Positions 41,845 through 46,989 of a stretch of 64,000 nt of DNA are shown one piece after another. The position numbers and the translations under genes were made by a program. Each line of letters starts with the position of its first letter. Position 1 is the first letter of the stretch. A model generated the notes under the pieces. That model was not told the origin of the DNA, did no database searches, and saw only the letters and a list, made by a program, of their open reading frames with translations. The DNA is from Cognatundibacterium crateris (GTDB taxonomy: Bacteria > Pseudomonadota > Gammaproteobacteria > Burkholderiales > Burkholderiaceae_D): positions 496,001-560,000 of the forward strand of contig NZ_JAABOS010000001.1 of the NCBI RefSeq assembly GCF_010078235.1. Direction: 5' to 3'.

Positions 41845-43011
41845 TTACTTGAGCTGATCATTTAACAATTGCAGAATTTTCAGAGATACCGGTGACGTGT
41901 CGAGCTTTCCTTCATTATTATGCACGCTGATATGGCTGACCTCACCATTCGGACCTGCATTTTTCACCAAAATGCGGTAGCGTTGCGCTTCTTTCGCTGC
42001 GTCGCTGGAACCGAACGAGAACAATTTAGAGAAGAAGCCTTCGCTCGCACCCTTGGTTTTCGCGTCGATGTCCTGATCGATGTAGCGTACAAAGTATACG
42101 CCTTGTGAACGATCGCGGTCTTCTACAGTGAAGCCAACTCTATCCAAAGCCAAGCCAACACGACGCCAGGAACGGTCAAAGCTTTCATCAACCTCTACAT
42201 AATTCTGCTCACCATTTTTGAGCAGTTTGGAATGCGATTTTTCTTCCGCCGCTGTTTTCACCGCCACTTTGGCAGTTTCTGCATCCGAGCCCAGGCGCAC
42301 CATCAGGCGGGACAAAAATTCAGCTTCCAGGCCAGGATCAGCCGCGCGCGGCGTCCAGACCGTGCCGTCCTTCTGCGCACCAGTCACCACTTCCTGTGCG
42401 CCACGATGGCTGATGTAAATTTCCAGCTTGCCATCCGCAGTACGCTCCAGACGGGTACGGAATTTATCACGCTCACCAGTCGAATACAGTGAGTCGATCA
42501 CGCGACCCAGTGTATTGCGGATGATATCCTGCGGGATTTTCGCGCGGTTTTCCGCCCAGTCCGTTTCCATCACACCAGCTTCCTGATTTTCTATCACAAC
42601 CAGAAAACCCAGTTCTTGCCAAAAGTCTTTCAATTGCGGCCATACATCTTCAGGCTTCTGCGAAACCACCAGCCAGCGCTGAGAACCATCACGCACAATG
42701 CGCATATCTTTGATCTGACCTGGCGCTACAGTTGCTGCAACTGTACTGGACTGGGCTTTAGCGCCCTTTTCCAGATTGTAGCCGGAAGCAGTCGCCGTAC
42801 TTTTATTCGCATCAGGAATCGCAAAACGGCTATCGCGGCGAATCTGAGTCAGGTCGGGCGGAACTTCCAATGACACCGCATTTGCTTTACCTGCGCTTTT
42901 GTAATCAATCTTATTTGGCTCAATCAAATTGCTAATAGAGCTACAACCCGTCAATCCAACAAGCGCTACAGCGCCGATGATGCCATTTTTAGCAACCAAG
43001 CTTTTTGCCAT
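41845..43011 (-). CDS. bamC: Outer membrane protein assembly factor BamC
   Basis: Lipoprotein of the BAM complex that inserts beta-barrel proteins. The 388-residue protein starts MAKSLVAKNGIIGAVAL with lipobox LTGC at about residue 24. SLEVPPDLTQIRRDSRF is the conserved unstructured BamD-binding stretch, followed by two helix-grip domains. The ATG at 43011 is preceded by AGGGAC; an ATG six codons earlier lacks a binding site. dapA lies upstream, the usual dapA-bamC pairing. Confidence 0.93.
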   Translation of the reverse strand: MAKSLVAKNGIIGAVALVGLTGCSSISNLIEPNKIDYKSAGKANAVSLEVPPDLTQIRRDSRFAIPDANKSTATASGYNLEKGAKAQSSTVAATVAPGQIKDMRIVRDGSQRWLVVSQKPEDVWPQLKDFWQELGFLVVIENQEAGVMETDWAENRAKIPQDIIRNTLGRVIDSLYSTGERDKFRTRLERTADGKLEIYISHRGAQEVVTGAQKDGTVWTPRAADPGLEAEFLSRLMVRLGSDAETAKVAVKTAAEEKSHSKLLKNGEQNYVEVDESFDRSWRRVGLALDRVGFTVEDRDRSQGVYFVRYIDQDIDAKTKGASEGFFSKLFSFGSSDAAKEAQRYRILVKNAGPNGEVSHISVHNNEGKLDTSPVSLKILQLLNDQLK

Positions 43012-43087: not shown

Positions 43088-43972
43088 TTATTGTAATACA
43101 CCTGCCTCGCGTAATGCAGCACGAAGTGTCTCATGATATTGCTCAGACATAGGCACTAAAGGCAAACGCAGGCCTGCAGGTATCAAGCCCATCTCACTCA
43201 TTGCCCACTTAACCGGCAGAGGATTTGGTTCGATGAATAATTTATTATGCAAAGCCATCAGATGGTTGTTGATACTGCGTGCTTTCGCAATATCGCCAGC
43301 CATCGCCGCTGCACATAATTCATGCATGGCTTTTGGTGCCACGTTGGCAGTCACGGAAATATTTCCTTTGCCGCCGCAGAACATCAGCGCCATTGCCGAT
43401 GCATCGTCACCCGAATAAACGGCAAAAGATTCCGGAGCCAGACGAATCAGGTCGATACCACGTGCCAGATTACCGGTCGCATCTTTCACACCGATGATGC
43501 CCGGCACTTGTGCAAGACGCAGGATAGTTTCATTGGACATGTCCGCCACAGTACGGCCTGGCACATTGTAGAGAATGACAGGAATATCAACCGATTCCGC
43601 AATTTTCTTAAAGTGCTGATACATGCCTTCCTGGGTAGGACGGTTGTAATACGGTACAACTTGCAAAGACGCATCGGCACCCGCTTCTTTAGCGAATCGG
43701 CTCAAAGCAATCGCTTCGGCAGTTGAATTGCCACCGGAGCCAGCAATGATAGGAATGCGTTTATTGGTGTGCTCAACAGCGACACGGATCAACTCGCAAT
43801 GCTCTTCGACTGAAACTGTCGGCGACTCACCTGTGGTCCCGACGATCACGATACCGTCGGTACCTTGCTCGATGTGCCAGTCAATCAGCTTACGCAGGCA
43901 TGGCAAATCGAGACTGCCATCAGCATGCATAGGGGTTACGATCGCAACCAGACTTCCGTGAATCTTTGTCAT
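43088..43972 (-). CDS. dapA: 4-hydroxy-tetrahydrodipicolinate synthase
   Basis: Condenses pyruvate with aspartate semialdehyde, the first step committed to lysine and diaminopimelate. The 294-residue TIM barrel starts [34 protein letters not shown] holds the substrate-binding Thr pair; the catalytic Tyr is in [14 protein letters not shown] and the Schiff-base Lys in [15 protein letters not shown] longer frame to 44017 is not family-like. With dapC/D/E elsewhere in the window it supplies the first step. Confidence 0.96.
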
Positions 43973-44066: not shown

Positions 44067-44648
44067 TTACGCCAGACGATTTAACTGCTTCGCCCCGCCC
44101 TGCCTGCGCGCGCATATCCGCTGTATCTGTGCCGGCCTCGGTACATCCACATAGCCGGATTCATAGGCAATCACCTCCATCGCGACCGCTGGACTTGACG
44201 CAATCAACTGCAGTAACTCACCCTCTTTGAGTAAAAATTCTGCACGCGAAGGTTTGCCAAATTTCTCATTACCCACAGCAAAAGTCTCGTAAATCATCAC
44301 ACCACCGGGAGCAAGCAATTTCAGCAAGCGCGGGAACAAGGGCCGGTGCAAATAATTACATACAATCAGCGCAGAAAACGAGGCATCTTCAAACGGCCAG
44401 ATGAGTTCGCCTTCCCGCTCCAGATCCAAAGCAAGCGTGTGAACACCAGCCTGTTCCAACTGCTCAAATGCGGCAGCATCCCTGTCCACACCAAACAGCT
44501 CTAAACCTAAGCCCAACAAGGGATACAAATTACGGCCATGACCGCATGCCACATCCAACACTCGTCCAGCCTGAATCAGCTGACTATGCCTGATTACCCA
44601 GGCTGATGCCGTACCTGCACCGCAAACCATGTGAGCACACAGCGTCAT
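44067..44648 (-). CDS. Class I SAM-dependent methyltransferase
   Basis: A 193-residue Rossmann-fold methyltransferase. Motif I is VLDVACGHGRNLYPLL, followed by the acidic end of strand 2 in LFGVDRDAAAFEQ. ALIVCNYLHRPLFPRLLKLL and GGVMIYETFAVGNEKFGKP mark motifs II to IV. It resembles small TehB/UbiE-like proteins; the substrate is unknown. It begins three bases after the stop of the site-2-protease-like gene, so both are likely co-translated. Confidence 0.88.
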   Translation of the reverse strand: MTLCAHMVCGAGTASAWVIRHSQLIQAGRVLDVACGHGRNLYPLLGLGLELFGVDRDAAAFEQLEQAGVHTLALDLEREGELIWPFEDASFSALIVCNYLHRPLFPRLLKLLAPGGVMIYETFAVGNEKFGKPSRAEFLLKEGELLQLIASSPAVAMEVIAYESGYVDVPRPAQIQRICARRQGGAKQLNRLA

Positions 44649-44651
44649 CGC

Positions 44652-45308
44652 TCAAAACAAAAAGGTAAACGGGATCAGTAAAATTTGCAATAAAGCACTA
44701 CCAAGTGCCATCACAGGCACCATCCAGTACTGCAACATTTTCAAAATAGCAAGACCCATCACGATGAAAAAACCATAGGGCTCAATTTGTGCAAACTTCA
44801 TTGCCATTTGATGCGGGAGCAAACTGATCATTAACTGACCACCTGCCAGTGGAGGCACAGGAATCAGATGAAATGCAAACATCGCCAGGTTAGTGAGTAC
44901 ACCAGCGGATGCCATTTGTATGAAAAAACTCTCATCGACGCGGAATACACGCAACAAAATAGCAAGCAAAGCCCAGGCAAAAGCCATGACGAAGTTGGCC
45001 AATGGGCCGGATATGGAAACCCAGGCCAGGTCTTTTTTAGGATTACGTAATTGCGAATAATTGATAGGCATAGGTTTGGCATAGCCAAACAAAAATGCGC
45101 CATTGGTCGCCAGATACAGCACCACGGGAATTACTATCGTCCCCAGCGGGTCGATATGCACCATGGGGTTCAGGCTTAGCCTTCCAGCGGCCTGGCCAGT
45201 CGTATCGCCAAAATGACGCGCCGTATAACCACGGGCCGCCTCATACAGCGTAATAGCGAACACAACTGGCAGTGCGAAAATAAGAACGGTTTGAATTAAG
45301 TCATTCAT
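44652..45308 (-). CDS. Site-2 protease (M50) homologue with degenerate active site
   Basis: A 218-residue membrane protein with about six hydrophobic segments. It matches the short bacterial S2P-like proteins: ITLYEAARGYTARHFGD, AAGRLSLNPMVHIDPLGTIV, FGYAKPMPINYSQLRNPKKD, SGPLANFVMAF and LIPVPPLAGGQLM. In active members the first segment reads LHEAAHGY and the last PPLDGG. Here the zinc ligands His-x-x-x-His are Tyr and Arg (codons TAT and CGT, each one transition from His) and the Asp ligand is Ala (GCA). Only the Glu of HExxH remains. The reading frame is intact, so this looks like a retained pseudoprotease rather than a decaying gene. Confidence 0.9.
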   Translation of the reverse strand: MNDLIQTVLIFALPVVFAITLYEAARGYTARHFGDTTGQAAGRLSLNPMVHIDPLGTIVIPVVLYLATNGAFLFGYAKPMPINYSQLRNPKKDLAWVSISGPLANFVMAFAWALLAILLRVFRVDESFFIQMASAGVLTNLAMFAFHLIPVPPLAGGQLMISLLPHQMAMKFAQIEPYGFFIVMGLAILKMLQYWMVPVMALGSALLQILLIPFTFLF

Positions 45309-45345: not shown

Positions 45346-45969
45346 TTACAGGCCAAAAAGCGCAGGATCACCGCCACCCAGCCGTATCAGCTCGGGCTCT
45401 GCAGCGGTCATATCGATCACCGTGGTGGGCGACAAACTGCAGGCACCACCGTCTATCACCAGGTCGAGCTGTTTTTCCATGCGTTCACGGATTTCTTCAG
45501 CGTCATTCAACGCGGCGTCCTCGCCCGACAAAATGAGCGTAGTGGCCAGCAGCGCCTGCCCTAATTCTTCTAATAAGGCATGGGTAATCTGATGTTCAGG
45601 TACACGCAGACCTATGGTCTTACGCGAAGGGTGACTGAGGCGGCGTGGGACTTCCTTGGTCGCCTCCAGAATAAAGGTATATGGCCCCGGCGTTGCAGCT
45701 TTGAGTAAGCGGTATTGTTTATTGTCGACCTTGGCATACAAGGCGATTTCAGACAAATCGCGACATAACAAAGTCAGGTGATGTTTTTCATCGACGCCGC
45801 GGATACGACGCAAGCGGGTTACCGCATCTTTATCATCCAGATGACAAACCAGGGCATAACAAGAATCCGTGGGAATAGCAACGATGCCACCCTGATCGAC
45901 AATCTGCACTGCTTGTTTAATCAACCTGAGCTGAGGATTTTCAGGATGAATTTGAAAGAATTGACTCAT
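45346..45969 (-). CDS. Sua5/YciO/YrdC-family protein (threonylcarbamoyl-AMP synthase-like)
   Basis: A 207-residue protein with the family ATP/bicarbonate-binding fold: GGIVAIPTDSCYALVCHL, RLRRIRGVDEKHHLTLLCRD, PGPYTFILEATKEVPRR and KTIGLRVPEHQITHALLE. The family makes threonylcarbamoyl-adenylate for tRNA t6A37; the YciO subgroup, which this resembles in length and in the lack of a Sua5 C-terminal domain, is less well understood. The ATG at 45969 (MSQFFQIHPENPQLRLI) is family-like; the frame upstream is not. The next gene downstream is the S2P homologue, 37 bases away. Confidence 0.9.
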   Translation of the reverse strand: MSQFFQIHPENPQLRLIKQAVQIVDQGGIVAIPTDSCYALVCHLDDKDAVTRLRRIRGVDEKHHLTLLCRDLSEIALYAKVDNKQYRLLKAATPGPYTFILEATKEVPRRLSHPSRKTIGLRVPEHQITHALLEELGQALLATTLILSGEDAALNDAEEIRERMEKQLDLVIDGGACSLSPTTVIDMTAAEPELIRLGGGDPALFGL

Positions 45970-46134
45970 AAAATAGTAAGGCTGGCGATGCTCGCCAGGC
46001 GCCTCGTCTGGAAAACGATAAGAACGCGGACGACACTGCGTAGTAGTTTTACCCACCAGCCATGATTAAATAGACATAAGCTGAGTAATGTACCAGATTC
46101 CCCTCTGTCAGGGGGATGTTATCAAGCGCTGGCA

Positions 46135-46989
46135 TCAGTCAAAACGCCAATGCTCCCACACCGGCACAGAATCGCGCGGCAAGGCTTGTAAATGTCCGAT
46201 ATCAACCTCGAAATCCTCAGGCGAATGAAAATCCGAACCGCGTGAACTCAGAAAACCATAACGTGCGGCGATACCAGCGTATTCTGCATACTGATCCACT
46301 GTATGGCTACCTGTGACCGTTTCAATAGCAACACCGCCGAAGGCCTTAAACTCACGGAAAAAGCAGTCAAACGCCAGCGGCGTCAAATCATAACGGCCAG
46401 GATGCGCGATGACAGCCACCCCGCCAGCATCCCGTATCCAGCTGACAGCATCTTTGAGATTGGCCCAACGATGCGGCACGTAGCCCGGCTTGCCCTCAGT
46501 CAGGAAATGTTTGAATGCGTCAGAAACCGAGCTGGCGGCACCGATTTCCGCCAGATAACGCGCAAAGTGTGAACGCGAAATTAAATCAGGGTTGCCAACA
46601 TATTTCAACGCACCTTCATAGACACCAGCGATTCCGGCACGCTGCTGCAGATCCTGCGCCATATCGCGCGCGCGGCGCTCGCGTCCAGAGCGGGTATTAG
46701 CCAAACCAGCCAACAGTTGCGGGTTAGCTTCGTCGACTTGCAAACCAACGATATGCACCGTCTTCCCGGCCCAGGTTACCGACACTTCCACGCCGGCGAC
46801 AAATGGCAGGCCCAAGTCAGCCGCAGCCGCTCTGGCCTCAGCCACACCACTGACCTCATCATGATCAGTCAGCGCCCATAACTCAACACCGTTACGTTTT
46901 GCACGTATCGCCAGGTCAGACGGCGTCAGAACACCATCCGACACCGTGGAGTGAGAATGCAGATCAGCGTTTAACAAGATGGCAGACAT
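46135..46989 (-). CDS. rnm: PHP-domain 5'-3' exonuclease / nucleoside bisphosphate phosphatase (RNase AM)
   Basis: A 284-residue PHP metal hydrolase homologous to E. coli YciV (RNase AM), which trims 5' ends of rRNA precursors and cleaves 3',5'-bisphosphonucleosides. Metal-binding motifs are NADLHSHSTVSDGVL, WALTDHDEVSG, FVAGVEVSVTW, VAVIAHPGRYDL and SSRGSDFHSPED. A complete set of His/Asp ligands is visible. It heads the minus-strand group that continues through the Sua5-like, S2P-like, methyltransferase and dapA genes. Confidence 0.9.
   Translation of the reverse strand: MSAILLNADLHSHSTVSDGVLTPSDLAIRAKRNGVELWALTDHDEVSGVAEARAAAADLGLPFVAGVEVSVTWAGKTVHIVGLQVDEANPQLLAGLANTRSGRERRARDMAQDLQQRAGIAGVYEGALKYVGNPDLISRSHFARYLAEIGAASSVSDAFKHFLTEGKPGYVPHRWANLKDAVSWIRDAGGVAVIAHPGRYDLTPLAFDCFFREFKAFGGVAIETVTGSHTVDQYAEYAGIAARYGFLSSRGSDFHSPEDFEVDIGHLQALPRDSVPVWEHWRFD

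Follow-up and report, generated by a model that had tools for sequence, protein, structure and literature searches.

In Cognatundibacterium crateris a homologue of the site-2 proteases (S2P, family M50) reads YEAAR where working members have HExxH and LAG where they have LDG, raising the question of whether the gene is a relic or encodes a protein that is kept for something other than cutting. We studied it within a window of 64,000 nucleotides (contig NZ_JAABOS010000001.1, positions 496,001 to 560,000). The first-pass annotation had described an intact homologue that has lost all three zinc ligands, and its open reading frame, strand, start and stop proved correct, the frame being intact over 218 residues. 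The gene and the codons concerned are:

44652..45308, minus strand: the pseudoprotease gene, an S2P/M50 homologue of 218 aa that lacks the zinc ligands
45243..45245, minus strand: codon 22, TAT, Tyr replacing the first zinc-ligand His (all 27 working sequences have His)
45240..45242, minus strand: codon 23, GAG, the Glu of HExxH, kept
45231..45233, minus strand: codon 26, CGT, Arg replacing the second zinc-ligand His
44868..44870, minus strand: codon 147, His replacing the conserved Asn of NxxPxPPLDGG
44844..44846, minus strand: codon 155, GCA, Ala replacing the zinc-ligand Asp

Residues 22-27 of the translated protein are YEAARG and residues 147-157 are HLIPVPPLAGG, against HEAAH and NLFPIPPLDGG in working relatives; Glu23 is kept. 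In an alignment with 27 working sequences (24 from Undibacterium and 3 outgroups, "working" meaning that the motif is intact) H22, H26, N147 and D155 are each invariant among the working set, so that four hallmark residues have changed and not three. The loss of the zinc ligands was thus confirmed, but the replacement of Asn147 by His, adjoining the Asp loop, had been overlooked. The earlier codon arithmetic was sound: TAT and CGT are both single transitions from a His codon and the Asp to Ala change was costlier, GCA lying at least two changes away from any Asp codon. The protein is 30-67% identical to HExxH-bearing homologues over most of its length, which places it among the M50/S2P proteins, and it scores 25.6 bits with Pfam Peptidase_M50, just under the cut-off of 27.2, compared with 43.8 bits for a working orthologue (L143). 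It lacks both the HExxH zinc motif and the LDG Asp ligand expected of an active site-2 protease and is a pseudoprotease in the sense of a protease homologue without catalytic or ligand residues. Chance or assembly error could be ruled out, as the same changed residues occur in eight separate Undibacterium genomes, six of them also represented by named records; the closest named records are those of U. rugosum (99% protein identity) and U. curvum (97%), which makes the window genome an Undibacterium (Oxalobacteraceae in the NCBI taxonomy).

AlphaFold2 models of the dead protein (pLDDT 88.6, pTM 0.86) and of the working orthologue from genome G002 (86.7 and 0.85) have an identical helix order at similar confidence, and since the alignment contained working homologues these models cannot show function. 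For both models the best fold matches in the PDB were mjS2P (3b4r) and SpoIVFB (8vjl), with a Foldseek probability of 1.0 but weak E-values (best 1.1e-3 and 2.7e-3); mjS2P is also among the nearest solved structures by sequence profile (E 3.6e-12). Unlike the window protein, mjS2P is a working protease with HExxH and Asp in the alignment. SpoIVFB is likewise a working protease with HExxH and Asp.

A dead protein may accompany a working one, and the first-pass annotation had suggested looking for a second, catalytically intact copy. In the window genome PF02163 matches L002, which is RseP, as well as two fragments of the S2P gene itself and, weakly, L003, which Pfam assigns to DUF3267. The RseP has intact HELGH and LDGG motifs and is separate from the window S2P. 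A second working copy was rejected, no other member of this subfamily being found in the genome, and with a single copy present the dead protein does not stand as a decoy next to a close paralogue that works.

We then considered relatives, using "genus" (g1) and "family" (f1) for the genome collection's own groups, of which the family is possibly wider than Oxalobacteraceae. The genes that flank the locus in the window are:

44067..44648, minus strand: gene with a methyltransferase domain, 3 bases downstream of S2P
45346..45969, minus strand: Sua5/YciO family gene, upstream flank, which groups G016 with G002
46135..46989, minus strand: PHP-domain gene; in most relatives HtpX lies between PHP and YciO
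43088..43972, minus strand: dihydrodipicolinate synthase family gene (DapA), downstream flank
41845..43011, minus strand: NlpB/DapX lipoprotein family gene, downstream flank, which we take to be BamC

The close coupling to the methyltransferase, put forward earlier as a feature of the gene, exists as a 3-base gap before the methyltransferase ATG, but the adjacency is common to most working orthologues of the genus. An S2P match was found in 35 of the 43 genus genomes searched; in 34 it is the locus gene, and in G038 a distant relative (32%) elsewhere in the genome. Twenty-four of the 34 aligned locus copies have HEAAH with NxxPxPPLDGG and eight have YEAAR with HLxPxPPLAGG. The remaining two are G040, with HEGAR and HLIPILPMAGG, that is H26R, N147H and D155A yet with H22 retained, and G030, with CEAAK and NLIPIPPMDGG. 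S2P is absent from its place in four genomes, where the gene next to YciO is the methyltransferase (G005, G024, G038) or one for a class I tRNA synthetase of the W/Y type, taken as TrpS (G029); its function is thus dispensable. The locus lies out of view in G019, G026, G027, G033 and G039 (65-89% complete). The four loci with no S2P between YciO and the next gene are L148, L149, L150 and L153. The M50 relative in G038, at about 30% and with PPLDGS, lies at L132:5154-5630(+) and has one stop inside the match. A DNA pattern for YEAAR matched 6 of 399 genomes of the order, and the five matches outside the window genome were not S2P; this was a search with one pattern and few genus members included, and so no census.

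The first-pass annotation had taken a dN/dS near 1, together with frameshifts in sister strains, as the mark of simple decay. In a purpose-written codon model (GY94 type, F3x4) omega came to 0.057 on background branches and 0.071 within the YEAAR crown; the single genomes G040 and G030 had 0.117 and 0.118. The model rejects an omega of 1 in the crown (2 delta lnL 692), in G040 (30) and in G030 (8.1), and the difference from background was not significant for the crown (2.4) or for G030 (3.6). Internal stops are absent from all eight YEAAR frames, and 75 of the 93 positions that are at least 95% conserved in working copies are retained in all eight. The pseudoprotease is therefore maintained by selection, as had been proposed, rather than decaying. 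On the stem of the dead clade, where the omega estimate reached its bound, evolution was faster than background (2 delta lnL 10.5) and indistinguishable from 1 (0.5). To us this codon record speaks of rapid change on the stem and a return to constraint afterwards, not of decay.

How often did the dead form arise? S2P gene trees group all eight YEAAR genomes and G040 in one clade with a support of 100, and this clade persists after dropping 11 diagnostic columns and has a support of 75 with third codon positions alone. At the level of sequence these trees show a single origin of the YEAAR and HEGAR alleles within Undibacterium. Convergence on YEAAR in separate lineages was rejected by the third-position tree and by the tree without the diagnostic columns, and is also contradicted by silent sites in S2P that conflict with the flanks. 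The ligand loss had been called coordinated, a wording that does not survive G040, which lost three of the residues but has H22, so that loss may have been stepwise. Three placements of G040 inside the dead clade fit the data (AU 0.12-0.57), leaving more than one order of loss plausible.

The flanking genes have a different history. A flank tree of PHP, YciO, DapA and BamC (codon positions 1 and 2) splits the YEAAR genomes into three separate parts of the genus: G000, G017 and G004 beside G040; G016 as a close sister to the working G002; and G009, G028 and G014/G042, with the working G025, G020 and G021 nested among them. S2P rejects the pairing of G016 with G002 (AU 3.6e-5) as well as the grouping of G028/G014/G042 with G025/G020/G021 (AU 3.5e-6, and 3.7e-9 with G009 added). 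Taken alone, YciO, DapA, the methyltransferase, BamC and PHP each join G016 to G002 at 100, and all five reject the dead group, with AU values of about 1e-4 or below. Silent sites tell the same story: identity at fourfold sites between G016 and G002 is 62-80% in these genes but 33% (of 64) in S2P, and between G016 and G009 it is 32-46% in them but 56% (of 88) in S2P. A 50-base scan located the switch: G016 equals G002 at 84-100% through YciO and at 98-100% in the final 150 bases before S2P, then within S2P is 76-92% similar to G009 and only 50-84% to G002, and reverts to G002 shortly past the methyltransferase start. The 5' end of the methyltransferase falls inside the exchanged tract in some species pairs.

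In G016/G002 the exchange is confined to little more than the gene. Over about 96 kb of order shared by G016 and G002, divided into 320 segments of 300 bases up to a large unshared island, 13 segments fall below 75% effective identity, two of them in S2P; of the 11 outside S2P, nine are interrupted by gaps or have no match and two align at 78-81%, so the two S2P segments alone align near full length at under 70%. Between G020 and G021 two of 133 segments are low, the lowest being the S2P/methyltransferase junction. Divergence centred on S2P with similar edges was found in G020/G021 and in G030/G036; it was not seen in G008/G012 or G003/G011. The conflict between the S2P and flank trees together with this switch in ancestry indicates that recombination has put dead alleles in the place of working ones, and the reverse, while the locus stayed fixed. 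As far as the DNA tells, the dead allele appears to have moved between Undibacterium species, and a working allele seems to have replaced a dead one in G025/G020/G021.

Changed active sites are not limited to this genus. Among 78 other family sequences 77 keep HExxH and Asp, the exception being G060 with HDAAQ. All 61 genomes searched in its genus (g19) have an S2P match, and we read the motif in 50 of them: the 30 with the highest similarity to G060, plus a selection of 20 that takes in the six least similar. Twenty-one (L334-L354) have changed motifs, with HDAAQ in 16, HDAVQ in one and HNAAQ in four, the last without the catalytic Glu; all keep the Asp. In trees with 18 working sequences these 21 form one clade for the flanks as for S2P, pointing to vertical inheritance. 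Omega in this crown is 0.133 against a background of 0.105; a value of 1 was rejected (2 delta lnL 804), and the slight excess over background (2 delta lnL 5.4) is a sign of mild relaxation. As the first His and the Asp are kept, the chemistry may be altered here rather than lost. We also re-searched 30 family genomes, picked for low scores or by choice. In one of them, G071 (genome size 2.6 Mb), the S2P frame at L373:5037-5633(-) is intact and reads REAAT and SLLPLPPMDGG; the rest keep the ligands, with one motif unreadable in the partial loci L330 and L333. The family thus has at least four apparently independent active-site changes: the YEAAR clade, G030, the 21-genome g19 clade and G071.

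We favour, with a probability of roughly 0.6, the reading that the window gene encodes a catalytically dead S2P homologue kept by purifying selection, a selected pseudoprotease that acts by binding and not by cutting; the binding or regulatory role suggested earlier is putative and plausible. Having lost, by its sequence, three zinc ligands and a conserved Asn while retaining frame, length and most other conserved positions, the protein would no longer be able to hydrolyse peptides. By analogy with EGY3 and the iRhoms, it may still reside in the inner membrane and bind client transmembrane segments in the old substrate cavity, as an adaptor that would sequester, escort or shield them. A non-cutting function would then be sufficient, or superior, in these bacteria. 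The alleles, of single origin, were later replaced between species by homologous recombination amid conserved flanks. The low omega means that the protein matters and does not show client binding. Guarded sequence and allele swapping nevertheless suggest a job without cutting. A broader proposal, which we hold tentatively and at somewhat less than even odds, is that of one locus in the family with three functionally distinct states (working, dead but constrained, deleted), between which Undibacterium species switch by exchanging this gene alone through homologous recombination, the dead form being a selected alternative allele and not a relic. Sister species are predicted from their motifs to differ in whether the same-locus membrane protease can cut, and such naturally matched species offer a way to learn which roles an intramembrane protease has beyond cutting.

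To our knowledge S2P-family pseudoproteases are known only from plants. The iRhoms are eukaryotic proteins of a serine protease family and unrelated to S2P in sequence. They are described as inactive rhomboid homologues that keep the intramembrane protease fold without catalysis (PMC3149277), a fold without catalytic residues as predicted here for S2P. EGY3 is a plant chloroplast S2P pseudoprotease without the zinc motif, reported to stabilise other proteins (PMC10978774). EGY3 and the window protein are both S2P homologues that lack the zinc motif and are kept, but EGY3 is a plant nuclear gene beside working paralogues, whereas the window S2P is a bacterial orthologue replacing the working copy, has no second subfamily member found in its genome and belongs to alleles exchanged between species. 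The titles and abstract openings listed from the open-licence literature show no bacterial S2P pseudoprotease, and the available portion of a review of bacterial S2Ps mentions none (PMC10202637). What is new is a dead S2P allele exchanged between species and active-site changes recurring in the family, which goes beyond the first-pass view.

The main rival to the pseudoprotease reading is selection by an outside agent. If an antimicrobial peptide or a phage attacked cells through S2P in the membrane, selection would favour alleles that are altered, exchanged or deleted, and the loss of the active site would be a by-product of escape. The gene-limited replacement in G016/G002, the S2P-centred divergence in G030/G036 and G020/G021 and the absence of the gene from four genomes all resemble loci under attack, but no peptide or phage is known to us to act through it, and omega values of about 0.06-0.07 in background and dead crown give no sign of broad diversifying selection in the branch models. 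The S2P relatives RseP/YvjB are bacteriocin receptors in which the active-site state alters peptide sensitivity, a change of HExxH to Ala reportedly lowering it (PMC5413573); these are S2P proteins too, but Gram-positive ones of the RseP type, a different M50 protein. On balance we regard receptor escape as unlikely. Much less probable is a changed chemistry, in which Glu23, helped by the newly acquired His147 or by other residues, would hold a different metal or cofactor and catalyse another reaction. All eight dead copies and G040 do combine the old Glu23 with a new H147, but Tyr22, Arg26 and Ala155 would leave no plausible three-ligand site and the other lineages differ (CEAAK, HDAAQ, HNAAQ, REAAT), with no common new site. 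A young pseudogene whose frame is intact by chance is the least credible reading of all: the gene can be lost, as its absence from four relatives shows, but neutrality was rejected for crown, G040 and G030 alike and the YEAAR frames are free of stops. Simple decay is refuted for the YEAAR crown clade, a verdict that we do not extend to single genomes such as G030.

A further alternative concerns the neighbour HtpX (M48 in Pfam), which sits between PHP and YciO in most relatives and is missing from that interval in the window (45970-46134). If a working S2P acts with HtpX in a pathway that became unneeded, the active site would decay and HtpX be lost. Beside a working S2P a local HtpX is present in 23 of the 23 genus genomes seen, in 18 of 18 in g19 and in 29 of 30 other contigs (the exception being L084), compared with 9 of 14 genus genomes with a dead or deleted S2P, 13 of 20 with a dead one in g19 and 0 of 1 for G071. 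These counts leave out G034, too short to see, and G694, whose contig ends, and 16 of 46 other loci were uncounted (eight genus repeats, G071, two too short and five without YciO nearby). In the genus HtpX is missing locally from G000, G017, G004, G040 and G029, with no close copy in these five genomes, and G071 has no close HtpX either (best match 37%). On two genus trees all six HtpX losses fall on dead or absent-S2P branches, which make up 28% of branch length (naive P 4.7e-4, with one loss on a branch where S2P changes state, G034 taken as having HtpX, and L084 and G071 outside the test). These figures favour partner loss, but the retained HtpX beside a dead S2P is not relaxed (2 delta lnL 0.12 and 0.05): equal constraint on dead and working backgrounds led us to reject a relaxed HtpX. 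Moreover L084 combines a working S2P with no local HtpX, G031 has a working S2P and an HtpX with an internal stop, the searched g19 genomes without a local HtpX retain an HtpX-like gene elsewhere, and the dead S2P is not relaxed in Undibacterium and only slightly so in g19. We therefore consider partner loss improbable, more so than receptor escape, and treat the tie between HtpX loss and a dead or absent S2P as a lead.

Further observations concern the neighbourhood and more distant bacteria. The methyltransferase diverges unusually fast: its protein is 81% identical in G000 and G017, compared with 97-99% for the five other genes. In Helicobacter, the S2P sequences L104, L106, L108, L110 and L114 have REIL(S/F) at the place of HEAAH by spacing and PPLNGA for PPLDGG, with the Glu kept, and L111 has REIFF with PPLDGA; from these motifs there looks to be a separate zinc-ligand loss in Helicobacter. 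A partial match over residues 3-94 in candidate division TM6 (L115) reads SNMFR at the place of HExxH by spacing.
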